DNA of 64,000 nucleotides from Candidatus Sumerlaea chitinivorans (GTDB lineage Bacteria > Sumerlaeota > Sumerlaeia > Sumerlaeales > Sumerlaeaceae), in assembly GCA_003290465.1 (NCBI GenBank), contig CP030759.1, positions 412,672-476,671 of the forward strand, given 5' to 3'. Shown here piece by piece: positions 29,378 to 41,608 of this stretch; position 1 is the stretch's first letter; each line of letters starts with the position of its first letter. A program made the translations under genes and the position numbers. The notes beneath the pieces are model-generated. The model did not search any database and was not told where the DNA came from. It was given only the letters and a program-made list of their open reading frames with translations.

Positions 29378-30796
29378 GTGATCCGTAGCATCGGCGCGCT
29401 GAAAAATATCTGGAAAATCCCGGACCTAAAACAAAAGGTCCTCTATACGCTGCTCATTCTCGCAGTTTACCGCATCGGAGCTCACATCCCGACGCCATTT
29501 ATTGATCGTGGCAAGCTGACCGAATACTTGGGGCGCCTGCGGGGAACCGGTGGGGGACTGTTTGAGGTAGTGGACCTTTTTGGTGGATATGCTTTCCGGA
29601 ATATGAGCATATTCGCTCTCGGGATTATGCCCTACATCAGCATGTCCATTATCCTCCAGCTGATGGCGGTCGTGTTTCCCCGCCTTCAAAAGATTCAACA
29701 GGAAGGTGTTCTTGGACAGCGCAAAATCAATCGCTGGACACGCATCGGCACAATTTTCCTCACCGCCTTTCAGGCCTTTGGGTTGGGGCTTTACCTGCTA
29801 CAGCAAGACTTAACCTACATGAAAGGGAGCTACACAGGGCTGTTCCTTGTCACAACGGTGTTCGCCATGACCACAGGCACGGCGTTTATTATGTGGCTTG
29901 GCGAGAGAATCAGTGACAAGGGGATCGGCAATGGTATGTCGCTGATCATTGCCGCGGGTATCATGGCGCACTATCCGACAGATGCAGCTGCTCTGTGGGC
30001 GCAGATCAGTACCGGAAGCCTTGCAGCAATTTGGGCACCGGTAACGATCGTCCTTTTCGTTATCTCCTCGATGGCCATTATTCTTGTTCAGGAAGGCACG
30101 CGGCGCATTCCTATCCAACAAGCGAAACGCGTGGTGGGCCGACGGGTCATGGCCGGCGGGACCAATTACTTGCCCCTCAAGATTAACACGGCCGGCGTCA
30201 TCCCCGTTATCTTTGCGTCCGCAATTCTTAGCTTTCCAAGTTTCCTCGGTTCCTTCTTGAGTGGCGGAAGTGAGCAGGGTGGGATTTTGGGTTCCCTTTT
30301 TAGCCAGAATTCCCCTTACAACCTCTACAACCTTTTCAGCCGATGGTTTGGCCTCGAGCAGGGTGGAATTTTCCTGCTGCTGAAGAGCTTCAACCTGTAC
30401 ATCATTTTCTTTGCCCTGCTGACAGGCTTCTTCTGCTACTTCTATACCGCAATCGTCTTTAACCCCGACGATATCGCAAACAACCTCAAGAAAGCAGGGT
30501 CTTTTATCCCGGGAAAACGGCCCGGTAAACCCACCGCCGAGTACATTGATTATATCCTTACGCGCATCACGACTGCTGGCGCTGTCTTCCTTGTGTTGAT
30601 CGCCGTGACGCCTCTCGTGTTGGAAACCTCCTTCGGGATGCCTTACAACGCGGCGTCTTTCGTGGGGGGCACCGGACTCATCATCGTCATCGGTGTCATG
30701 CTGGATACGCTCAAGCAGATCGAGTCGCAGTTGCTTATGCGCCACTACGAAGGCTTCGCGATGCGTAAGGCGGCCTCGGTCGCTCGGTGGCGTTGA
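29378..30796 (+). CDS. secY: Protein translocase subunit SecY
   Basis: SecY is the channel of the Sec translocon. The 472-residue protein has ten predicted membrane helices, with the early PDLKQKVLYTLLILAVYRIG and GAHIPTPFID, the plug region, LGIMPYISMSIILQLMAVVF, LGERISDKGIGNGMSLIIAA and the large cytoplasmic loop QEGTRRIPIQQAKRVVGRR. An extended external loop (about residues 285-335, Gly/Ser/Asn-rich) makes it longer than E. coli SecY. It begins with GTG. adk, which often follows, is missing. Confidence 0.98.
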   Translation: MIRSIGALKNIWKIPDLKQKVLYTLLILAVYRIGAHIPTPFIDRGKLTEYLGRLRGTGGGLFEVVDLFGGYAFRNMSIFALGIMPYISMSIILQLMAVVFPRLQKIQQEGVLGQRKINRWTRIGTIFLTAFQAFGLGLYLLQQDLTYMKGSYTGLFLVTTVFAMTTGTAFIMWLGERISDKGIGNGMSLIIAAGIMAHYPTDAAALWAQISTGSLAAIWAPVTIVLFVISSMAIILVQEGTRRIPIQQAKRVVGRRVMAGGTNYLPLKINTAGVIPVIFASAILSFPSFLGSFLSGGSEQGGILGSLFSQNSPYNLYNLFSRWFGLEQGGIFLLLKSFNLYIIFFALLTGFFCYFYTAIVFNPDDIANNLKKAGSFIPGKRPGKPTAEYIDYILTRITTAGAVFLVLIAVTPLVLETSFGMPYNAASFVGGTGLIIVIGVMLDTLKQIESQLLMRHYEGFAMRKAASVARWR

Positions 30797-31170
30797 TGAA
30801 ACCAGCATTTAGTGTGGACTGCGTGCGCGGATGAGTTGGTGCCACGATCTACTCTGCTGATCGGGTGCGAGGCGACGCGACCCCAACGGAGAAATGCTGT
30901 GGTCGCCCTCAAAGCAAAATCCGCCGGCGACCAGTCGAGGCATACGTGAGGCGACAACAGGCAAGTCAGTCGCCGAATTCCTTTTGCTCCGCTCGTCAAC
31001 TCCATCTCGGCCGGGGAATTTGCGTTGCGGGGGACTTCCGTGTCGAATGCGAAACGTCGCCGCCTCGCTCTGAATGTGGCGCAAATTCCGGTTGCGTCAA
31101 TTGCCTCGCCGCAGCTCAAATGCTCCACAGTTTTGCGGCATGCGGTATTGCTTAGAAAGTTGTTAATGGA
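30797..31170. other. 374-base gap between secY and map, no gene supported
   Basis: In many bacteria adk occupies this spot. I find no P-loop or other adk trace in any frame. Short open frames here (for example 30865-31155 on the plus strand) have an odd, Arg/Cys-rich composition and no ribosome binding site. No clear promoter or terminator is visible. Confidence 0.6.
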
Positions 31171-31929
31171 ATGAACGGATCTTCCCGAATCGAGATCAAG
31201 ACACCCAAAGAAATCGAGAAGATGCGTCGAGCTGGGCAGCTGCTGAGCTCGGTTTTTCGTGCCCTTGCTCCGCAGATTGTTCCCGGCGTTAGCACTGCGG
31301 AACTCGACGCTTTTGCCAGAAAGCTGATTGAGGAGGCGGGGGCGATCCCAGCTTTTCTCGGCTATCACGGCTATCCCGCGACTCTTTGCACCTCTGTTAA
31401 CGATCAGGTAGTCCACGGAATTCCTGGCAAGTATGTCCTAAAGGAAGGTGATATTCTTTCGGTGGATTGTGGGCTTGTTCTCGATGGTTTTTACGCGGAT
31501 TCGGCGATCACGTTCCCAGTTGGGGAGGTCGGTGAATTAGCCCAGCGCCTCATCGACACAACCCGACGAGCGCTCGAGGCAGGAATCGAGCAGATGGTTC
31601 CCAACAATCGCTTGGGCACACTGCAAGCCGCCATTCAACAAGTCATCGAGAGCGAAGGTTTTTCCGTGGTACGCGAATACACTGGCCACGGCATCGGGCG
31701 CCAAATGCATGAACCGCCGCAGATTCTGAATTTCGGAACCCCCGGCACGGGACTGCGCTTGCGACCGGGCATGGTCTTTGCCATTGAGCCGATGGTGAAC
31801 GCGGGTACTTGGAAAACGCGCGTCCTTGAGGATGGATGGACCGTGGTGACCGCAGACGGCTCCCTCTCAGCGCACTTCGAACATACCATTGCTGTGACGG
31901 ACGATGGCCCGCTTGTCCTGACGGCGTAA
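31171..31929 (+). CDS. map: Methionine aminopeptidase, type I
   Basis: Map removes the start methionine from new proteins. All five metal ligands are visible: the two Asp in SVDCGLVLDGFYADSAI, His in YTGHGIGRQMHEPP, Glu in VFAIEPM and Glu in AHFEHTIAVT. The length of 252 residues is normal for a type Ia enzyme without zinc-finger extension. It lies 374 bases behind secY; infA, rpmJ, rpsM, rpsK, rpsD, rpoA and rplQ do not follow, and a glycosyltransferase cluster begins instead. Confidence 0.98.
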   Translation: MNGSSRIEIKTPKEIEKMRRAGQLLSSVFRALAPQIVPGVSTAELDAFARKLIEEAGAIPAFLGYHGYPATLCTSVNDQVVHGIPGKYVLKEGDILSVDCGLVLDGFYADSAITFPVGEVGELAQRLIDTTRRALEAGIEQMVPNNRLGTLQAAIQQVIESEGFSVVREYTGHGIGRQMHEPPQILNFGTPGTGLRLRPGMVFAIEPMVNAGTWKTRVLEDGWTVVTADGSLSAHFEHTIAVTDDGPLVLTA

Positions 31930-32121
31930 GTGTCGTTCCGAAGCTTCCGCACTCTTTGCGCTTGGCGTCCACACGCAACACTATCGGCGTGGGCCGCTCA
32001 CATTGTAGCGCTTCAAGGCACAGCTTGATAAAGCCACGTTGAACTTGGCTGCAGCCTAACGAATGCAAGGTTGACAGCCCACTGAAAATAGCTCGGAATC
32101 GGCAATCGCACTGTGACGACA

Positions 32122-33387
32122 ATGAGAATCTTAGTCCTGCACCAGCATTTTTATCCAGAGACAGTTGGAACCTCCACGCGCGCCGTGGAAATCGTGGAAT
32201 ACCTTGTCCAAAGAGGGCACGACGTAACGGTCGTGGCTGGGATTCCGAGTCACCCGTCAACGATGCGCAGTGGGGAAGTCAGCCGCAACCAACCACGTTT
32301 CGAAAAATTCCGTGGCGCCACACTCTACCGCGTGTGGACGTTCGGAACAGCAAAGCCTGATAATTTTTGGCGGCGGATGGCGGCGTATAGCTCGTTTATG
32401 TTCTTCGGCTTTCTTAAGGCGCTCTTCGTTCCGGGCAAGTTCGACGTCCTCGTCGCCATCAGCCCCTTGCCTGACGGAATCGCTGGGATGTGGGTTAGCG
32501 CACTGCGCCGGATTCCCCTCATGTTTGACGTTTGCGACATTTGGCCCGACTGCGCAATTGCGGTTGGAATGTTGCGGCATCCGCTTTTGATTCGTATCGC
32601 CCAGTGGCTTGAGAAATGTGTGTATGCACGATCGCGCCGCATCGGGGTTGTCACACGTGGGTTCATTGAGAACCTCTCGGCGAAAGGGGTCCCACGTGAG
32701 AAGATCCGGCTTCTACCTGACTGGGTGGACCCGGACGTGTACGATTCCTCAAAAGCACCCCGTGACGCCACTCGCCGTGAGTATGGGCTCGATGGTTACT
32801 TTGTCGTTTCTTTCTTTGGAAATTTCGGACTCTTGATGGGTTTGGAAACCATTCTCGAGGCCGCGAGAATCCTCAAAGACCAACCAGACATCCTGATCTT
32901 GTTTGTGGGCAAGGGCGTGGCTCAGCCAATGATGGAGGAGAAAATCGCGGCTTGGGATCTGCGGAATGTCCGGATCCTGCCGTATCAACCACGGTCGAAG
33001 GTTCCGGCCCTCTTAGCTGCGTCCGATGCGCTCATTGTGACGTACATGAAAAATGAGATTACGCGCATCACTGTTCCGTCGAAAATCTATGAGTACATGT
33101 CCAGCGAACGCCCCATCGTTGCCGGCGTGGAAGGGGTGATCGCGGAGATTCTCACAGAAGCAGGGTGCGGCTTAGTCAGCCGAACTCGTGACCCAAAAGA
33201 GATCGCCGAGCACATCCTCTACCTAAAACAAAATCCCGAAGTGGGACAAGAGATGGGCAAAAGAGGTCGAGAATACGCGATTCGCCACTTTGCTTTTGCG
33301 CGGGTTGCACAAGACTACGAGCAAACCGTACGGGAAGCGGCTGGCGAACTCGGGCAGGCGTCCGCAGCCGCTGCTGCAGCGCCTTAA
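32122..33387 (+). CDS. GT4-family glycosyltransferase
   Basis: A GT-B enzyme of 421 residues, WbuB-like. The N-terminal domain begins MRILVLHQHFYPETVGTSTR; FDVCDIWPDCAI and VLVAISPLPDGIAGM follow. The C-terminal donor domain contains VSFFGNFGLLMGLETILEAA, the ALLAASDALIVTYM strand and PSKIYEYMSSERPIVAG, whose Glu is part of the retaining-GT E-x7-E type site. Such enzymes add GlcNAc/FucNAc-like or hexose sugars in O-antigen or capsule synthesis. A GTG three codons upstream of the chosen ATG is possible. It heads an envelope-polysaccharide group with the GT2 gene next. Confidence 0.88.
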   Translation: MRILVLHQHFYPETVGTSTRAVEIVEYLVQRGHDVTVVAGIPSHPSTMRSGEVSRNQPRFEKFRGATLYRVWTFGTAKPDNFWRRMAAYSSFMFFGFLKALFVPGKFDVLVAISPLPDGIAGMWVSALRRIPLMFDVCDIWPDCAIAVGMLRHPLLIRIAQWLEKCVYARSRRIGVVTRGFIENLSAKGVPREKIRLLPDWVDPDVYDSSKAPRDATRREYGLDGYFVVSFFGNFGLLMGLETILEAARILKDQPDILILFVGKGVAQPMMEEKIAAWDLRNVRILPYQPRSKVPALLAASDALIVTYMKNEITRITVPSKIYEYMSSERPIVAGVEGVIAEILTEAGCGLVSRTRDPKEIAEHILYLKQNPEVGQEMGKRGREYAIRHFAFARVAQDYEQTVREAAGELGQASAAAAAAP

Positions 33388-33532
33388 GGCACTGAGACTC
33401 AGCGACTTTTCTTGTCGGAGGCTGGTCGAGACCTCGCAAAACGGATTGCTTTGACGTGTGAGGCCTGAATCACAATCTTTTTAATAAGAAGTTCCGAACA
33501 CAGCGTTTCTTGACGAAGCACGAAAAACGCGG

Positions 33533-34465
33533 ATGAGCACGACGAGTCCACCTCAGACGAATCAGTCCAATGTGACGACTACCCCTCGTCTATCTGTCGT
33601 GCTCATCAACCTGAACACTCGCGAGTTCTTGCGTGCCTGCCTAAAGTCCTTTGGTGCTCGGCTCAACGATCCCAGTTACGAAGTGATCGTGGTGGACAAT
33701 GGGTCCACCGACGGAAGCCTTGAGATGGTGCGTGAGGAGTTCCCATCTGTCCGCCTCATGCCTCAAGGCGAGAACCTTGGATTTACGAAAGCCAACAACA
33801 TTGGCCTCCGAGCAGCCCGAGGGCAATACCTTCTCATTCTCAATAGCGATACAGAGATCCTCGACGATGCCCTTGAGCGAATGTGCGCCTTTATGGAGGC
33901 GCATCCCGACATCGGTGCGTTAGGCCCCAAGCTCTTGAACCCTGACTTCACGCTCCAATACTCGTGCCGGCGTTTTCCCTCGTACCGCACAGCACTATTC
34001 CATCGCTATTCCATCATCACGCGCCTCTTTCCCAACAACCGTTATTCGCAGGAATACCTCATGAAAGACGTCGGCCACGACACCACCATGGACGTGGATT
34101 GGGTGAGTGGAGCCGCCCTTCTGACGCGACGCGAAACTCTTGCGCAGGTTGGGCTTTTTGACGAAGGATTTTTTGTTTATGCAGAGGATGTGGATCTGTG
34201 CTACCGCATCAAGCAGGCGGGGTGGCGCGTGGTGTACTTGCCGGAGGCGCGCATCATCCATCACATCGGAAAAACGTCGCGCCAGGTCCCGTACCGGGCA
34301 ACGTGGGAGCGCCATCGCAGCATGTGGCGTTTTTATCGCAAGCATTATAGTCGCGGCATTGTCCTCGTGGACGTAGCCACTTTCGTGGGAATTGCGTTAC
34401 GTTGTGGCCTTATGCTTGCACATACGTGGGTCACTCATCGTTTCCGCAAAGGAGAAAAAGGATGA
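33533..34465 (+). CDS. GT2-family glycosyltransferase (rhamnosyltransferase-like)
   Basis: A GT-A enzyme of 310 residues. LSVVLINLNTREFLRACLKS and VIVVDNGSTDGSLEMV are the GT2 donor-binding start, GYLLILNSDTEI-like LILNSDTEILDD carries the DXD-type metal site, and FDEGFFVYAEDVDLCYRIKQ the acceptor/catalytic ED motif. Members transfer rhamnose or other sugars to glycan chains. The stop overlaps the start of the next gene, a membrane protein of the WecA type, by four bases, which suggests a shared pathway. Confidence 0.9.
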   Translation: MSTTSPPQTNQSNVTTTPRLSVVLINLNTREFLRACLKSFGARLNDPSYEVIVVDNGSTDGSLEMVREEFPSVRLMPQGENLGFTKANNIGLRAARGQYLLILNSDTEILDDALERMCAFMEAHPDIGALGPKLLNPDFTLQYSCRRFPSYRTALFHRYSIITRLFPNNRYSQEYLMKDVGHDTTMDVDWVSGAALLTRRETLAQVGLFDEGFFVYAEDVDLCYRIKQAGWRVVYLPEARIIHHIGKTSRQVPYRATWERHRSMWRFYRKHYSRGIVLVDVATFVGIALRCGLMLAHTWVTHRFRKGEKG

Positions 34466-35364
34466 GCCGAGCATTTGTCGAACTCCTGATCGGCGCCGTG
34501 GCTTGCCTTGCCGGCATGGTGCTCGGTTACCGTGGCTGGAAACGCTCGCAACCAACTGGTTCCGTCCGCTCATCGCAAGTCTCTTACTATGCAGCGGCGC
34601 CTCTCGTGGGCGGATTTGTTGCCGGATTGCTGGTGCTGATCGCAGCACTCCAAACAATCGTTGGAACGAATGATCGGTTTTATAGTGTCACCAGTGCTTT
34701 GCGAGTTTCGCTCGGCGTGCTGGTTGGTGTTCTTCTGATTTTCGCTGGGTACTATCGTTATCGGCCCTATTCAGAGGTCGAGGATCGGGGGGCGGCCGCG
34801 TCATCCGCATCTTCCAATCGTGTGTGCGGGCTGCCGCACTGGCTGTACCGCCTTATCCTCGAAGTCCTTGCCGGATTGAGTGCCGTGGCTGTTGGCGTGC
34901 AATTCTCCATCCTCAGTATTGGTGCTGGGAAGGAAATCGCGCTGGGCGGTTGGTCACTCATCCTTACCCTCGCGTGGATTCTGCTGGCGATGAATGTCGT
35001 GAAGCTGCTTGATGGATTAGAGGGGGCAGTGGTGGTTCTCGTGCTCGTTGCGGCAGTTGCGGTGTGTTATACCACCCTCGGGACCGGTGAACATTTTCTC
35101 AATGCGCTGAGTGCGTGTCTGATCGGTGCCTCACTGGCTGCTCTTCGCTTTAACGCCTATCCTGCGCGACTATCGCTGCGCGGACCGGGTACTGCGTGTG
35201 CCGGATACCTCTTCGCCGTACTAACCGTCTTAGCCCGCCAGAAAACAGTAGCCGCATTGCTCCTCATTTTCCCCGTCTTTTTAATTTTGCTTATTCTTGC
35301 CGGTGCGATGTTGTCAGTTTTGGAACGTACTTTGTTTTCGGCGAATGAGGATCGTGAGGGATGA
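34462..35364 (+). CDS. Degenerate WecA/MraY-like membrane protein
   Basis: A 300-residue protein with about nine hydrophobic segments. It follows the WecA/MraY (PNPT) plan in order: PLVGGFVAG near residue 48 (family PxxGG), LLIFAGYYRYRP near 91-102, WILLAMNVVKLLDGLEGAV near 172-190, and IGASLAALRFNAYPARL near 221-237. Active enzymes have DD where this has Y97-Y98, a second Asn where this has K181, and a GD-type motif where this has R240-G241; only N178, D184 and N231 look kept. It is therefore probably not an active sugar-phosphate transferase. AAGGAG eight bases before the ATG fixes the start. It overlaps GT2 and Maf by four bases each. Function unknown, probably a scaffold, flippase-like or regulatory protein. 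Confidence 0.75.
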   Translation: MSRAFVELLIGAVACLAGMVLGYRGWKRSQPTGSVRSSQVSYYAAAPLVGGFVAGLLVLIAALQTIVGTNDRFYSVTSALRVSLGVLVGVLLIFAGYYRYRPYSEVEDRGAAASSASSNRVCGLPHWLYRLILEVLAGLSAVAVGVQFSILSIGAGKEIALGGWSLILTLAWILLAMNVVKLLDGLEGAVVVLVLVAAVAVCYTTLGTGEHFLNALSACLIGASLAALRFNAYPARLSLRGPGTACAGYLFAVLTVLARQKTVAALLLIFPVFLILLILAGAMLSVLERTLFSANEDREG

Positions 35365-36080
35365 CATCAACACCCCTGTTGGACTCTGATGGGCAGGATG
35401 CCTGCAAAGCAGCAAAATCGTGTGCGACGCCGAATACTCCGATCGTTCTGGCTTCGGCCTCACCGCGGCGCCGCGAGCTTTTGGAGAAAATCGGATTACA
35501 ATTCGTGGTTGCTCCCGCCGACGTGAATGAGGAGGCCCTACCTTATCGCACACCACGCGAGCTCGCAATCAAGGCAGCTTTTGCCAAGGCGTGCGCGATA
35601 GAACCTCGCTTTCCACGAGCCATTTTGCTTGCTGCGGATACCGTCGTTGCCCTCGACGGGAAAGTGTACGGCAAGCCAGTTACGCCTGACGACGCCGCGC
35701 GCATGCTCCGCGAGTTGAGTGGCCGACGCCACAGCGTGATTACGGGAGTCGTCGTGAAGGAATCCGGGAAAATGGCAGTGTTGGACGCGGTCGAGACGTG
35801 GGTATCGTTCCGCGAACTCACGGAGACAGAAATTGAGAACTACGTCGCATCCGGAGAGCCCATGGATAAGGCCGGCGCCTACGCCATCCAAGGCGGAGCG
35901 AGTGCGTTTGTGACGCATATCGAGGGAGACTATTGGAATGTGGTGGGGTTACCAGTCGCGCGACTCGTTGAACTGCTGGGCTCCTTTTTGGATGTCCGCC
36001 CCTTCCAGCAGAAGCTCCGCGAGTTGCGTACTCAAGTTCCTGTGCTCGGTCCACAGTTCCAGAATCCTGCGGAAGGATAG
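35361..36080 (+). CDS. maf: Maf-family nucleoside triphosphate pyrophosphatase
   Basis: Maf proteins hydrolyse dTTP/UTP or modified nucleotides and affect septum formation. The signature IVLASASPRRRELLEKIGL comes after about 30 residues of unconserved N-terminus; the catalytic Asp is in LLAADTVVALDGKVYGKP, and YAIQGGASAFVTHIEGDYWN is the typical C-terminal binding segment. The 239-residue length includes the extra N-terminal tail. Start overlaps the preceding gene (ATGA). YhdE-type specificity for dTTP/UTP is likely but not proven. Confidence 0.92.
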   Translation: MTSTPLLDSDGQDACKAAKSCATPNTPIVLASASPRRRELLEKIGLQFVVAPADVNEEALPYRTPRELAIKAAFAKACAIEPRFPRAILLAADTVVALDGKVYGKPVTPDDAARMLRELSGRRHSVITGVVVKESGKMAVLDAVETWVSFRELTETEIENYVASGEPMDKAGAYAIQGGASAFVTHIEGDYWNVVGLPVARLVELLGSFLDVRPFQQKLRELRTQVPVLGPQFQNPAEG

Positions 36081-36086
36081 TAAGGA

Positions 36087-38591
36087 ATGCCGAAGCCGAA
36101 TATAAAGCAAGTCGAACGCCCGTGGTTTCGGCTCACGCTGGTCTTGCTTTGTGGCATTGGATTCTACTTGGGGCGCCTGATTTGGAGCGCAGATCAGCTT
36201 CCCGGCTGGCTGAATTCGCCTTCCGTCGCCGTGTTTTACCCTATTGCGCAAAGTCTTTCGCAGATCCATGCTGGGACCGCCTCAACGAAGCTTCCCCTTT
36301 GGCATCCGCTACTGGGTACTGGCGTCCCCTTATGGGCTACGTGGGAGGGACAGAACATCTGCGGAAACCCCATTCAGTGGCTGCTGAGTTTCTCAGATTG
36401 GACAGCTCGTCTACGGTGGCTTGTCACCATTGAGTTGTGTTTGGCGGCAGTGGCATTTTGGCGGTTTGTTGTGCTACTGCGGATGCCTGCCCCCCTCGCA
36501 TCGTTAGCGACCATCCTATTTGCGGGAAACCCGTGGCTTGTGGGACAAGTTTGGAATGGGCGCTATGACGTGGGGTTGGCTGCAATTTGCGTCCCGTGGG
36601 CCTTGCATACACTCGTGCGCCGACGCAGAGAGAAAAGCTTCTCTCCCGTGGGACAATGTTTCCATGCTGGATTACGCCTTGCACCCGTTGCTTTCACCAA
36701 TGGGTTGGCCGCATGGGCAGTCATCGTTGGAGCTGCGCTGTGGGTAGCCTCAATATGGAAGAGTGGGCTGGAAGCGGACAGCAAACGTGGGTGGTTTTTT
36801 TCGCCAAAGGCTATCTTGCGGTGGGGAAGAGCGATCCTTGGCACAACCGCCTTGGTCGGTTTGCTGTGCGCTCCATCCCGTTTCCCTTCGTGGGAACTGT
36901 TGGCAAACAGTGTGTCTATCCCATTCGGTTTGCCAAACTACGACAGCCATCTCTCAGACCTCTTAGGAGCATTTGTGCCGGTGGTGCTCATGGAGCATCT
37001 ATCGACTGGCGCGGAGGCTGGGACGTCAGAGCTCCATTCTCTCGTACCACGCAAATTTGCTTTTCCTTACTATGGACTAATCTTTGCGGGAGTAGCTTAC
37101 GGAGTCGTGCGGCTTCTGGTTGCGGCGCGCAATTCGCACCTTGCCCGGTCACAACTTCGAAATCCGCGGGTGTGGCTTCAACTGATTGGGCGGGCAGCCG
37201 TGTTATGGGCAACGTTGATTGTCTTTGAACACGGATTGCATCGCTGGCAACTGGGGACATTGTGGGGGATTTCCATCCCTGCTTTAGGCTTCGTGGTGGT
37301 ACTGAGCGCCCTTGCTATCGCGATTCCCCAGGCTGTCGTCGTATGGCCCCGCTCCCAGCGCGAGCGGGGCCACTGGATTGCGCTCTATGCGTCACTGGCA
37401 GCCGCCTACCTTGCCTTTGCCTGTGCGATCTGGATCCTACCTGATACCATATGGACAAACTTAGTGGGGGGTGGGCATAGCAAAAGTACCGAGGTCCGAA
37501 CAGCATTCGACTCGATGCCGACGTCGGCTGAACCGCCTGCCTTAGGTGTGGAGTCTTCCAAATCAGATGCTCTGTTTGTGTGTGTAAGGCAAGCGGTGTT
37601 GGCTTTGCTTTTTGTCCTTTGCCTCGTGGGTACAATGAAGGGCGAAACGCGCCGCCGCTTACTCTGGTTGATTGTTGTCCTTACGCTTGTGGATTTGCGT
37701 ATGGCGTCGGCTCCCCTGATGGGGCTTTCCCGTATCCACGCTCTCCCCAGGTCCCCAAATCTTGACTCATCACAGGAAAATTCCTCTTCCCACCAGAGGG
37801 TCTTGGTCTTCGGTTCTCCCGAGCAAGTTTTGTTTCCCCTACTCAGTGGCAATGCGGTGCTGAATCCGCCGCTTACGAAAATCCCACAGGATTTTGGAGA
37901 AAACGCAGAGCTTTGTCCTGCGCTTTATATTTCTGATAAAAAGCGAGTTAGCAACGAAACGTTAAAGCGATTGTTTGCATCGAACGGAGTGCGGTACGCT
38001 TTTGTTGCACCCGAGAACATCCAGTTTGTTCCAGAATGGTGGGGGAGTTTGTTTCACCCGTGCCGGGAAGTGGACCGGACGCAGGGCTGGAAATGCTACA
38101 AGTTTCAGGAACCTTGGCCTCGAACAACCGTGTGGCATAGAATTGTCGGCGTGAGCGGGGGACGCGAGGGGAGGTTGCGAATCCTGACCCAAGAGTGGAG
38201 CGGATCTGAGATCTACGTGGACGGTTTGAGACAGCTTGAACCGTCGGCGCGTGACCTATTGAACTCATTGGCCCGTGGTCCTGCGTCAACAGGCAGTACC
38301 AGAGTGCTATGGGATCTCGGGAACGATTTCCTGGCCGAATGCCAGACTCAGATTCCGGGGATCATTGTTGTTCAAGATGTTACATATCCTGGATGGAAGT
38401 GTTTTGTGAATGGGGTACGCGTGTCGCCATTGCGAACAAACGGTTGGATGCGAAGCGCGTTTGTGAAAGACGGTTTCTCGCGGGTTCGTTTCCTCTTTGC
38501 GCCTTACAGCGTTCGGTTTGGGTTCTACTTTGGAGCGATTGGCTTGGGAATCCTAACCTTTGTCAGTTTTCGCAAGCGCTTTACCGGTTAA
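36087..38591 (+). CDS. YfhO-like polytopic membrane protein
   Basis: A protein of 834 residues with about ten to twelve membrane helices, then an extracytoplasmic C-terminal part. The first loop TKLPLWHPLLGTGVPLWATW fits the YfhO family (GT-C-like membrane proteins that transfer glycosyl groups on teichoic acids or glycans). The end VTYPGWKCFVNGVRVSPLRT ... FAPYSVRFGFYFG matches its C-terminal beta domain and last helix. A membrane glycosylation role is inferred from family and from the GT genes upstream. It follows Maf by six bases with GGAAGG ahead of the ATG. The next gene is convergent. Confidence 0.8.
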   Translation: MPKPNIKQVERPWFRLTLVLLCGIGFYLGRLIWSADQLPGWLNSPSVAVFYPIAQSLSQIHAGTASTKLPLWHPLLGTGVPLWATWEGQNICGNPIQWLLSFSDWTARLRWLVTIELCLAAVAFWRFVVLLRMPAPLASLATILFAGNPWLVGQVWNGRYDVGLAAICVPWALHTLVRRRREKSFSPVGQCFHAGLRLAPVAFTNGLAAWAVIVGAALWVASIWKSGLEADSKRGWFFSPKAILRWGRAILGTTALVGLLCAPSRFPSWELLANSVSIPFGLPNYDSHLSDLLGAFVPVVLMEHLSTGAEAGTSELHSLVPRKFAFPYYGLIFAGVAYGVVRLLVAARNSHLARSQLRNPRVWLQLIGRAAVLWATLIVFEHGLHRWQLGTLWGISIPALGFVVVLSALAIAIPQAVVVWPRSQRERGHWIALYASLAAAYLAFACAIWILPDTIWTNLVGGGHSKSTEVRTAFDSMPTSAEPPALGVESSKSDALFVCVRQAVLALLFVLCLVGTMKGETRRRLLWLIVVLTLVDLRMASAPLMGLSRIHALPRSPNLDSSQENSSSHQRVLVFGSPEQVLFPLLSGNAVLNPPLTKIPQDFGENAELCPALYISDKKRVSNETLKRLFASNGVRYAFVAPENIQFVPEWWGSLFHPCREVDRTQGWKCYKFQEPWPRTTVWHRIVGVSGGREGRLRILTQEWSGSEIYVDGLRQLEPSARDLLNSLARGPASTGSTRVLWDLGNDFLAECQTQIPGIIVVQDVTYPGWKCFVNGVRVSPLRTNGWMRSAFVKDGFSRVRFLFAPYSVRFGFYFGAIGLGILTFVSFRKRFTG

Positions 38592-38754: not shown

Positions 38755-39519
38755 CTATCGTGCCAAACCATACCGACGGCGGATCCGCTTTTCTAAGTTT
38801 CCGAAAATCACTGAGTCAACGAAGAGTCCGACGCATATGATCATGATCATGGCAGCCAACATCATGGGGACATCGTTGAAGGAACGGCCGGTTTCGAGAA
38901 GACGCCCAAGCCCCATGGCATCCGCACGAATAAGTTCAGCCGCCATCAAACTACGCCACGCAAAGGACCATCCCAGCTTGAGGCCGCCCATGAGCTCGGG
39001 GAGCGCAGCAAAGAACAGGATGTCGCGGGCAAAAATCAGGCGTCGAGCTCCAAGAACCTCACCTACTTTAAGATAGATCGGCGGGATATTTCGAATCGCA
39101 CTCTCCGTTGCGACCGCAATTGAGAAGACTGCGCCGAGTATGACAACTGCAATGACTGCCTGTTCGTTGATTCCCACCCAGATCAAGGCGAGTGGCAACC
39201 AGCAGATACTTGGCAGAGACTGAAGAGAGAGCACCAACGTACCAAGCGTTTCTTTTGCAAGGGTGCTTCGGGCCAACAAGATTCCCAAAAGGATTCCCAC
39301 CACAACCGAGACGGTGTAACCGATGATCATCCGTGCCATGCTCTTTCTCACTGCGGTCCAAAGTACTCCATCAAGCAACATTTCCCACAAGCTGTGTCCA
39401 ACTTGCACTGGACCGGGCACCAAGTAATCAGGAAGAATTTGCAAACGAACGATCCCTTCCCAGCAAAGAACAAGAAGTACGAAGAAGCCAATTTTAAGAA
39501 TCAATCTTCTACCAATCAT
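38755..39519 (-). CDS. ABC transporter permease, SsuC/TauC type
   Basis: A 254-residue inner-membrane protein with about six helices. The EAA-type loop LGARRLIFARDILFFAALPE couples to the ATPase, and GLKLGWSFAWRSLMAAELIR is typical of nitrate/taurine/sulfonate permeases of the SsuC family. It is the last gene of an ATPase-binding protein-permease set, 45 bases after the binding protein. Near cysK and an Rrf2 regulator, transport of an organosulfur compound or sulfate-like anion is the best guess. Confidence 0.9.
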   Translation of the reverse strand: MIGRRLILKIGFFVLLVLCWEGIVRLQILPDYLVPGPVQVGHSLWEMLLDGVLWTAVRKSMARMIIGYTVSVVVGILLGILLARSTLAKETLGTLVLSLQSLPSICWLPLALIWVGINEQAVIAVVILGAVFSIAVATESAIRNIPPIYLKVGEVLGARRLIFARDILFFAALPELMGGLKLGWSFAWRSLMAAELIRADAMGLGRLLETGRSFNDVPMMLAAMIMIICVGLFVDSVIFGNLEKRIRRRYGLAR

Positions 39520-39564
39520 GTTCTGTAGTCCTATTGTACGCTAAAGATAACTATATAAGACATC

Positions 39565-40743
39565 CTATGGGCTTTGTTTGTCCGTTGTAACTGTCTGCCC
39601 TGTTTGGGCCAAAAAGAAATCGTCCAATCTTACGGCGTTTTTTGGCATGTACCTCAACTGACGAGCGATCAGTACCAGACGTTCCAACCCCTCACGGTGG
39701 GCTGAGGTTGTGAACTCGATGCGCTCAAGCGAGCTTGCAACAAGCGATTCCGGAAAGGGTTTGTGCGTAAGCCTGTGCATGGCCTCTGACAAGACTGGCA
39801 CCAGCGATTCCTTATTTGCTCGGAGTTCGAGCGTCAGAGAAGTATGGCAGTCGAGAAGTGCACTTACAATGTCCCTATGCTCCTCCGCGAACTTCTTCCG
39901 AGCAATCACCACTGTCAGAGGAGTGCGCCCGTCTGGCCAAAGGCTTTTCTCTTCGGTGAGGAGCACGCCAGTTCCTTTCGTTACCAATTGCGAGCCCCAT
40001 GGTTCAGGAACCCACGCTCCATCCAATTGATCTTTTGCCATAAGGATTTCGATGTCGGAGGGCGCGATGGGGACGATGTCGGCTGACTTCTGGCTTCGAC
40101 ATGCAGTACCAGCTGCTCCAAGAAAGTAGCGTGCAGCAAGATCTTGTGTGTTGCCCATTTGCGGCGTCGCCACGCGACGACCGCACAGGTCCTCGAGCTT
40201 TCGGATGTTGCGCCGTGGATTTCCAATGACAACCGTTCCGTTTTCGGCTGCTCCCGAGAGCAACCGAATCTCTTGCCCTCGGCTCCTAAGGTAGCCGTTC
40301 AGAGCCGGGATGGGCCCAACATAGGCAACATCAAGATGTCCCGCATAAATCGCCTCGATAATGGCTGGCCCCGCTTGGAAGGCTTGCATTGTGCAATCGA
40401 AACCCGTAGACCGCAGTGCCGCAGTAAAATCACCTCGCTGATATGCAATCAGTGCCTGCGCGTGCGTGATGTTCTGCAGAAAACCAACTCGCACAACTCC
40501 AGCCCCGGATGGCGATTTGCTATTCTCGCGGCAGCCAGCCAGGATTAAAATTAGAAACGATGGCAGCAGCACGCTCGAATGCACCGTGAGTAGGGGAGGA
40601 GCACACCGAACGAGTTGTTTCCGAAGCGAGCCCGCAAAAAAGGCGATGTTATGGGTGAGCGCGGCCCTCCAGCACCTTACACGCCCGCAGAATTTTCCTA
40701 CTAATTCTATCAATTTAGTCGTATTTGGCGTTAGTGTTCTCAT
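39565..40743 (-). CDS. ABC transporter substrate-binding lipoprotein, SsuA/NrtA type
   Basis: A periplasmic-binding-protein-like II fold with VRVGFLQNITHAQALIAYQ, DVAYVGPIPALNGYLRSRG and IEILMAKDQLDGAWVPEPWG, characteristic of the NMT1/SsuA/TauA family that binds sulfonates, nitrate or thiamine precursors. A lipobox LAGC follows a hydrophobic stretch, so the protein is probably a membrane-anchored lipoprotein. The start is uncertain: ATG at 40743 (just past the ATPase stop) leaves about 70 residues before the lipid Cys, which is too long for a signal peptide; a GTG nearer the hydrophobic stretch is possible but has no good ribosome site. Ligand unknown. Confidence 0.87.
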   Translation of the reverse strand: MRTLTPNTTKLIELVGKFCGRVRCWRAALTHNIAFFAGSLRKQLVRCAPPLLTVHSSVLLPSFLILILAGCRENSKSPSGAGVVRVGFLQNITHAQALIAYQRGDFTAALRSTGFDCTMQAFQAGPAIIEAIYAGHLDVAYVGPIPALNGYLRSRGQEIRLLSGAAENGTVVIGNPRRNIRKLEDLCGRRVATPQMGNTQDLAARYFLGAAGTACRSQKSADIVPIAPSDIEILMAKDQLDGAWVPEPWGSQLVTKGTGVLLTEEKSLWPDGRTPLTVVIARKKFAEEHRDIVSALLDCHTSLTLELRANKESLVPVLSEAMHRLTHKPFPESLVASSLERIEFTTSAHREGLERLVLIARQLRYMPKNAVRLDDFFLAQTGQTVTTDKQSP

Positions 40744-40765
40744 CTTGGAGCCAGGCCAAACAGAA

Positions 40766-41608
40766 TTAAATCCCACTTGCCGGATCTGGAGTCGGTTGCA
40801 CTTGTAGCTCGGGCGTCCAGTCCTCATCGAACTCGCGGGCCGCAACTTTCTCCACTTCCTCCCGAATGGAGGTGTGAAGCTGCCCGGCGAAGACCCGTAG
40901 GTCGGCGGAAGAGCTCACGCGTGGGCGCGCAAAGGGGACCCGCACCAACCGTTTGATGGAACCGGGTGGCGCCGTCATGATCAACACGCGATCCGCAAGG
41001 TACACGGCTTCATTAATGTTGTGCGTTACGAAAATGATGGTGACATGAGTTTCGAACCAAATGCGTTGCAGCTCGTCGTGGAGCACATCTCGCGTTTGTG
41101 CATCCAATGCGCTAAATGGCTCGTCCATGAGTAGGACGTTCGGCTCAAGCGCCAGTGCGCGGGCGATGCTTACTCGCTGACGCATCCCCCCCGATAACTC
41201 ATGGGGCAAGGCGTGAGCATATTTCGACAGATGCACCATTTTCAGAAAATGCATGGCGCGCTCGCGGCGCTCAGTCTTTGGAATACCCCGTAGCTTGAGG
41301 CCGTACTCGACATTACCCAGCACGGTCATCCAAGGCATAAGTCCAGCCTCTTGAAAGACGACCGCGCGATCCGGCCCCGGCCTTTCCACACGTTTTCCCT
41401 CCACCAGCACTTCGCCGGTGTCGGGGCGCTCGAAACCTGCGATAAGGTTCAGTAGCGAGGACTTGCCACAACCCGACGGGCCGATGATTGCAAAGAACTC
41501 ACCCTTTTCAACCGTCAGCGTAAGCGGCGCCAAAGCAAGAATACGGCGAGTCGAACCGTTGCCGCGCTGCACATAAGTTTTGCTGACGTTTCGTAATTCA
41601 ACTGCCAT
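40766..41608 (-). CDS. ABC transporter ATP-binding protein, SsuB/TauB type
   Basis: A 280-residue ATPase. Walker A is IIGPSGCGKSSLLNLIAGFE, the Q-loop VVFQEAGLMPWMTVLGNV, the signature LSGGMRQRVSIARAL, Walker B VLLMDEPFSALD and the H-loop IFVTHNINEAVYLADRVLIM. The overall match is to the nitrate/sulfonate/taurine subfamily. The start is followed closely upstream by a lipoprotein gene; the binding protein and permease follow downstream, forming a complete importer. The C-terminal tail is about 40 residues, acidic. Confidence 0.94.
   Translation of the reverse strand: MAVELRNVSKTYVQRGNGSTRRILALAPLTLTVEKGEFFAIIGPSGCGKSSLLNLIAGFERPDTGEVLVEGKRVERPGPDRAVVFQEAGLMPWMTVLGNVEYGLKLRGIPKTERRERAMHFLKMVHLSKYAHALPHELSGGMRQRVSIARALALEPNVLLMDEPFSALDAQTRDVLHDELQRIWFETHVTIIFVTHNINEAVYLADRVLIMTAPPGSIKRLVRVPFARPRVSSSADLRVFAGQLHTSIREEVEKVAAREFDEDWTPELQVQPTPDPASGI

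Follow-up and report, generated by a model that had tools for sequence, protein, structure and literature searches.

A WecA/MraY-type membrane protein lacking its catalytic residues is retained beside a glycosyltransferase gene in Sumerlaeota

Results and Discussion

Genes and features at the locus

The stretch of DNA analyzed here (64,000 nucleotides, hereafter the window) comes from Candidatus Sumerlaea chitinivorans, probably strain BY40, whose genome was the first in Sumerlaeota to be completed (PMC8092238). A gene at 34462–35364 (+) encodes a 300-amino acid protein with nine predicted membrane helices, an inactive protein of the WecA/MraY type that we call pseudo-PNPT. Its constant neighbor, immediately upstream (33533–34465, +), encodes a GT2 glycosyltransferase (PF00535/PF13641) that looks active, and the motifs N-x-D-T, DWVSGA and EDVD are kept in the aligned GT2 orthologues. 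Further upstream lies a WcaI-like GT4 glycosyltransferase gene (32113–33387, +), which matches NCBIfam NF007640 with an E-value of 1e-50, below the curated cutoff. The GT2 gene stops at 34465 and the pseudo-PNPT gene starts at 34462; the latter stops at 35364 and the following gene starts at 35361. The four-base overlaps reported on both sides in the initial annotation are therefore present. That annotation also placed glycosyltransferases on both sides of the gene, which proved wrong for the downstream side, where the product is a Maf-family nucleotide pyrophosphatase (35361–36080, +; TIGR00172, E 7e-52, above cutoff).

In the translated open reading frame, the WecA/MraY motifs occur in the order and at the residues first described: P47-L-V-G-G51, Y97-Y98, N178-V-V-K181-L-L-D184-G-L-E-G, R229-F-N-A-Y-P-A-R236, and R240-G241. 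The extracytoplasmic beta-hairpin, TM5 and loop C (residues 145–188; 34894–35025, +) were delimited from the structural model and the alignment columns. Loop C reads N178..K181..D184, with K181 replacing the Mg2+-binding Asn. Loop D (residues 229–242, RFNAYPARLSLRGP; 35146–35187, +) has Gly241 where the Mg2+-binding Asp is expected. The extracytoplasmic turn between TM8 and TM9 (VLARQKTVAALL; 35227–35262, +) is the most conserved segment of pseudo-PNPT.

Pseudo-PNPT has the PNPT fold

The Pfam family PF00953 matches the window protein with an E-value of 4.9e-14 and 53 bits, against a cutoff of 27 bits. A profile built from eight close orthologues (family f1) aligned with 21 intact PNPTs at 99.6 % probability (hhalign), while the same profile gave 0.2 % against an unrelated permease family used as control. 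The AlphaFold (AF2) model of the window protein (pLDDT 85.8, pTM 0.84) shows nine long helices and, at residues 150–160, the extracytoplasmic hairpin typical of MraY. When this model was compared with the PDB by Foldseek, the top eight matches were all MraY, with probability 1.00 and TM-scores of about 0.5–0.6. The tenth PNPT membrane helix is absent from the model, in which the C-terminus ends after TM9. The kinship with WecA/MraY proposed from motifs is thus borne out by profile and by structure.

Among the homologues described below, PF00953 is matched by 7 of 8 members of family f1 and all three of f12, and matched weakly by only 2 of the 12 members of f7, f13 and f15. Profile–profile comparison nevertheless assigns the f7/f13/f15 class to PNPTs (97.2 %, E 4e-11; controls 0.1 %). 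A second AlphaFold model, made for this class, has a pLDDT of 82.9, and its top twenty fold matches in the PDB are MraY or DPAGT1; a sequence search of the PDB with the f7/f13/f15 profile returned nothing meaningful. Generic similarity between membrane proteins was rejected as an explanation, as the unrelated-family controls reached only 0.1–0.2 % in the profile–profile comparisons. In both sequence classes, the product is a PNPT-fold protein by descent.

The GT2 and pseudo-PNPT genes are paired across the phylum

Homologues were sought using GT2 as a guide, since it changes more slowly than the membrane protein. The pair was found in 24 of the 40 Sumerlaeota genomes examined, which are mostly metagenome assemblies, and in five families (eight genomes in f1, three in f12, five in f7, seven in f13, and one in f15, the last lying outside the class). 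At the thresholds used, neither gene was found in the other 16 genomes, some of which are incomplete. Wherever the pair exists, pseudo-PNPT directly follows GT2 (24/24). The two genes overlap by exactly four bases (ATGA or GTGA) in 17 of 24 genomes and lie within about 12 bases of each other in the remainder, some gene starts in this count having been picked by script. Misassembly was rejected, as the pair recurs in 24 separate genomes.

In f1, the order GT4–GT2–pseudo-PNPT, mostly followed by Maf, is kept in 8/8 genomes at different chromosomal sites. The upstream GT4 of the WcaI type is present in all eight, and Maf follows pseudo-PNPT in at least five f1 genomes besides the window. In f7 and f13 (loci L098–L104 and L109–L112), the GT2 protein preceding pseudo-PNPT mostly has two GT2 domains in tandem, encoded by a single frame of approximately 600 amino acids.

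Searched alone against 84,980 species genomes, the window protein found no relative; the f1 alignment, run against the same genomes, found matches only in Sumerlaeota. Both pseudo-PNPT profiles were also run against 386 genomes, and among the matches listed, those from outside the phylum score far below the family. The outside matches that we examined, namely those adjoining a GT2 gene and a few others, are intact PNPTs.

Catalytic residues are lost in all 24 homologues

In DPAGT1, Mg2+ is bound by Asn185 and Asp252, and the N185A and D252A mutants keep 1.2 % and 7 % of activity; the DD pair is a structural element that activity does not strictly require, its mutants retaining at least 10 % (PMC6218659). 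The initial annotation had centered on the DD pair of loop B. Its loss is real in the window protein, which has neither Asp, but it is not the critical one, because the Mg2+ ligands of DPAGT1 lie elsewhere and DD mutants stay partly active (PMC6218659). Across the 24 pseudo-PNPTs, the first Asp of the pair is never present, the second is present in 16, and the Lys that follows in none. Nor is the Tyr-Tyr replacement a conserved change: it is limited to the three closest sequences, since the sequence of loop B is not conserved within f1.

In the alignment columns corresponding to DPAGT1 Asn185 and Asp252, both ligands are lost in 24/24 pseudo-PNPTs, whereas 24 intact PNPTs, mostly from the same phylum, keep the Asn in all cases and the Asp in 23. 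No homologue in this position retains either ligand, so that the catalytic loss deduced from one sequence extends to all 24. The Lys noted at the Asn position is less general: this position holds Glu in 16 sequences, Lys in 6 and Arg in 2, with Lys or Arg in f1. The Asp position holds Lys in 14, Gly in 7, and Leu, Ser and Thr in one each. In families f12, f7 and f13, the two positions have become Glu and mostly Lys. Two further losses had escaped the initial annotation, the His motif of loop E, absent in 24/24, and the tenth helix.

These columns bear on two explanations in which the protein is still an enzyme. It might still function as a PNPT, with a changed metal site, if the preserved fold and the remaining parts of loops C and D were sufficient. 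We consider this very unlikely, given that both Mg2+ ligands are changed in all members, that f1 carries Lys or Arg in place of the Asn, that the His loop is gone, and that single ligand substitutions are so damaging in DPAGT1 (PMC6218659). Alternatively, the old active site could have been rebuilt for another reaction, which the near-uniform Glu and Lys at the ligand positions outside f1 and the D..S..H motif retained in f7 and f13 would fit. However, the polar residues kept at the ligand positions differ between f1 and the other families. Moreover, only G248, K261 and P271 are invariant among the 23 aligned pseudo-PNPTs, and counterparts of K261 and P271 are common in intact PNPTs too. A Glu-Lys salt bridge standing in for Mg2+ outside f1 is plausible from the alignment, and a Glu-Lys pair is equally expected from such a metal-free structural element. 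We therefore regard a new enzymatic activity as improbable.

The gene is under purifying selection

The reading frame is open in 24/24 pseudo-PNPT genes, and a frameshifted pseudogene was rejected on this ground. Between close pairs, dN/dS is 0.12–0.28 for pseudo-PNPT and 0.05–0.21 for GT2, values that are approximate as dS is near saturation. The low overall identity between families could suggest a decaying relic, carried along only by its coupling to GT2. The open frames and the dN/dS range already contradict this idea, as does an extracytoplasmic segment at 0.90 identity (see below), and we give it almost no credence. Pseudo-PNPT has lost its catalytic residues, and its gene is retained by purifying selection. 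The conserved pseudoenzyme suggested at the outset is thus upheld by orthologue retention, synteny and dN/dS; the roles suggested along with it, as scaffold, flippase partner or regulator, are putative.

In an unrooted tree, a branch supported at 100/99 sets all 24 pseudo-PNPTs apart; one f15 sequence and one f1 sequence have very long branches. This single branch fits one loss of metal binding and of the sugar-nucleotide loops, which would have occurred before the phylum radiated.

Relatives of GT2 outside Sumerlaeota accompany initiating transferases

In three genomes from outside the phylum (G331, G363 and G232), a relative of the GT2 gene is followed by an intact PNPT gene. The PNPTs encoded after related GT2 genes at loci L122, L128 and L133 are homologous to pseudo-PNPT and hold the same position behind the GT2 lineage but, unlike pseudo-PNPT, have all catalytic motifs intact. 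In genome G364, the GT2 relative is followed by an initiating transferase of PF02397. In G187, it is fused to a PF02397 bacterial sugar transferase, a monotopic initiating transferase, in a 783-amino acid frame (L132, 2515–4863, −). The GT2 lineage therefore tends to be encoded together with initiating phosphoglycosyltransferases, whichever of the two folds these have. Other GT2 relatives from outside Sumerlaeota are often followed by a gene for a Wzy_C O-antigen ligase.

The simplest history would start from an active GT2–PNPT pair; in Sumerlaeota, the PNPT would then have become non-catalytic without the two genes being separated. The argument relies more on where the genes lie than on the tree, in which the outgroup PNPTs show no specific grouping with the pseudo-PNPTs.

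A putative non-catalytic partner of GT2

Many pathways for lipid-linked glycans begin with a PNPT protein, and one member of the superfamily, MraY, is a target of antibiotics. A natural PNPT that has been stripped of its active site and is nonetheless selected would reveal other uses of the fold. In the literature searched, which covered few subscription journals, we found no description of a pseudoenzyme in the PNPT superfamily or of WecA.

Since catalysis was lost phylum-wide and the gene is still selected beside one working GT2 gene, pseudo-PNPT probably aids GT2 instead of catalyzing a reaction. Intact PNPTs are encoded elsewhere in the same genome (L031 and L032), so that initiation need not depend on pseudo-PNPT. 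In addition, the protein retains the TM4-TM5-TM9 region, where active relatives have their polyprenyl groove; the helices lining this groove were defined in DPAGT1 (PMC6218659). Together with the kept GT2 motifs, these observations favor a non-catalytic role. The reading we prefer, to which we give about an even chance, is that pseudo-PNPT is a putative membrane partner, co-translated with GT2, to which GT2 docks and which keeps the lipid-linked acceptor of GT2 in place. Sequence and gene neighborhoods support descent from an active initiating phosphoglycosyltransferase that was encoded beside GT2 and worked with it; in the inferred order of the pathway, GT2 adds a following sugar. Metal binding and the sugar-nucleotide loops would have gone before the radiation of Sumerlaeota. 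What is left is the part of the protein within the membrane, with the TM4-TM5-TM9 region, and an extracytoplasmic rim that is conserved more strongly. Today, one of the intact PNPTs of the cell would make the lipid-linked acceptor, and pseudo-PNPT would dock GT2 and hold this acceptor for GT2 to glycosylate. Simple membrane anchoring of GT2 was given less weight, since the C-terminus of GT2 is itself hydrophobic and an anchor may not be needed.

Constraint has shifted to the extracytoplasmic side

To locate the constraint, we compared mean pairwise identity in pseudo-PNPT and in intact PNPTs of the same family across six matched f1 genomes, with region boundaries set from the model and sidedness inferred from the known topology of MraY. 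Over the whole protein, identity is 0.44 for pseudo-PNPT and 0.60–0.63 for intact PNPTs. In cytoplasmic loops A and B, where PNPT enzymes have residues that bind the substrate, pseudo-PNPT falls to 0.10 and 0.14, against 0.51–0.76. Two extracytoplasmic segments behave in the opposite way, P3 (TLGTGEHFL) with 0.67 against 0.53–0.56, and P4 (LARQKTVAAL, residues 257–266) with 0.90 against 0.74–0.75. Compared with catalytic PNPTs, pseudo-PNPT thus shares the fold, the extracytoplasmic beta-hairpin, nine of ten helices, the order of loops C and D and a genetic link to glycosyltransferases, but lacks the Mg2+ Asn and Asp, the DD pair, the loop-B Lys, His loop E and the tenth helix, and its loops A and B are unconstrained.

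GT2 should act in the cytoplasm, whereas the strongest residual conservation is extracytoplasmic. Docking by itself leaves this conservation unexplained, which is why we consider a regulatory alternative. Pseudo-PNPT might form mixed dimers or compete with an intact PNPT, sense flipped lipid-linked precursors on the extracytoplasmic side and so match initiation to demand. In MraY, a lipid II site has been proposed on the extracytoplasmic side of the dimer interface, involving the periplasmic helix 221–228 (PMC10914600). Our alignment puts this helix between TM6 and TM7, in the same segment as P3, so that the same face and the same TM6-TM7 segment are under constraint in pseudo-PNPT, whose P3 and P4 both exceed those of the enzymes in conservation. 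MraY, however, is an active enzyme. Furthermore, the constant neighbor is GT2 and not an intact PNPT, dimer surfaces vary among members of the superfamily (PMC6218659), and the conservation comparison covers only six matched genomes. We consider regulation of this kind possible but rather doubtful.

The shift of constraint to the extracytoplasmic side would also suit a protein that handles the lipid-linked product there, aiding its flipping or its hand-over to a ligase or polymerase, and the Wzy_C ligase genes that often follow related GT2 genes outside the phylum point the same way. The block itself has no ligase, though, and we know of no lipid-transporting member of the PNPT superfamily; such a role appears unlikely.

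A broader idea is more tentative. Phylum-wide, these dead PNPTs could perhaps represent a cytoplasmic transferase fold turned into an extracytoplasmic-facing sensor or chaperone of lipid-linked sugars that controls a specific glycosyltransferase. Pseudo-PNPTs could also be used to probe a separate regulatory function of the extracytoplasmic PNPT face, as proposed for MraY (PMC10914600).

Chromosomal context of the block

In G000, G001, G003 and G007, the sugar-transferase block (29378–36080 in the window, +) comes after two genes of the ribosomal protein operon, secY and map; it lies elsewhere in G002, G004, G005 and G006. After Maf, the window encodes an 834-amino acid polytopic protein (36087–38591, +) that matches neither Pfam nor NCBIfam, and its homologue is found behind Maf in G001 and G007 as well. 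Beyond the block lies an ABC uptake system of three genes, for a permease, a binding protein and an ATPase (38755–41608, −), likewise in G001, G003 and G007.
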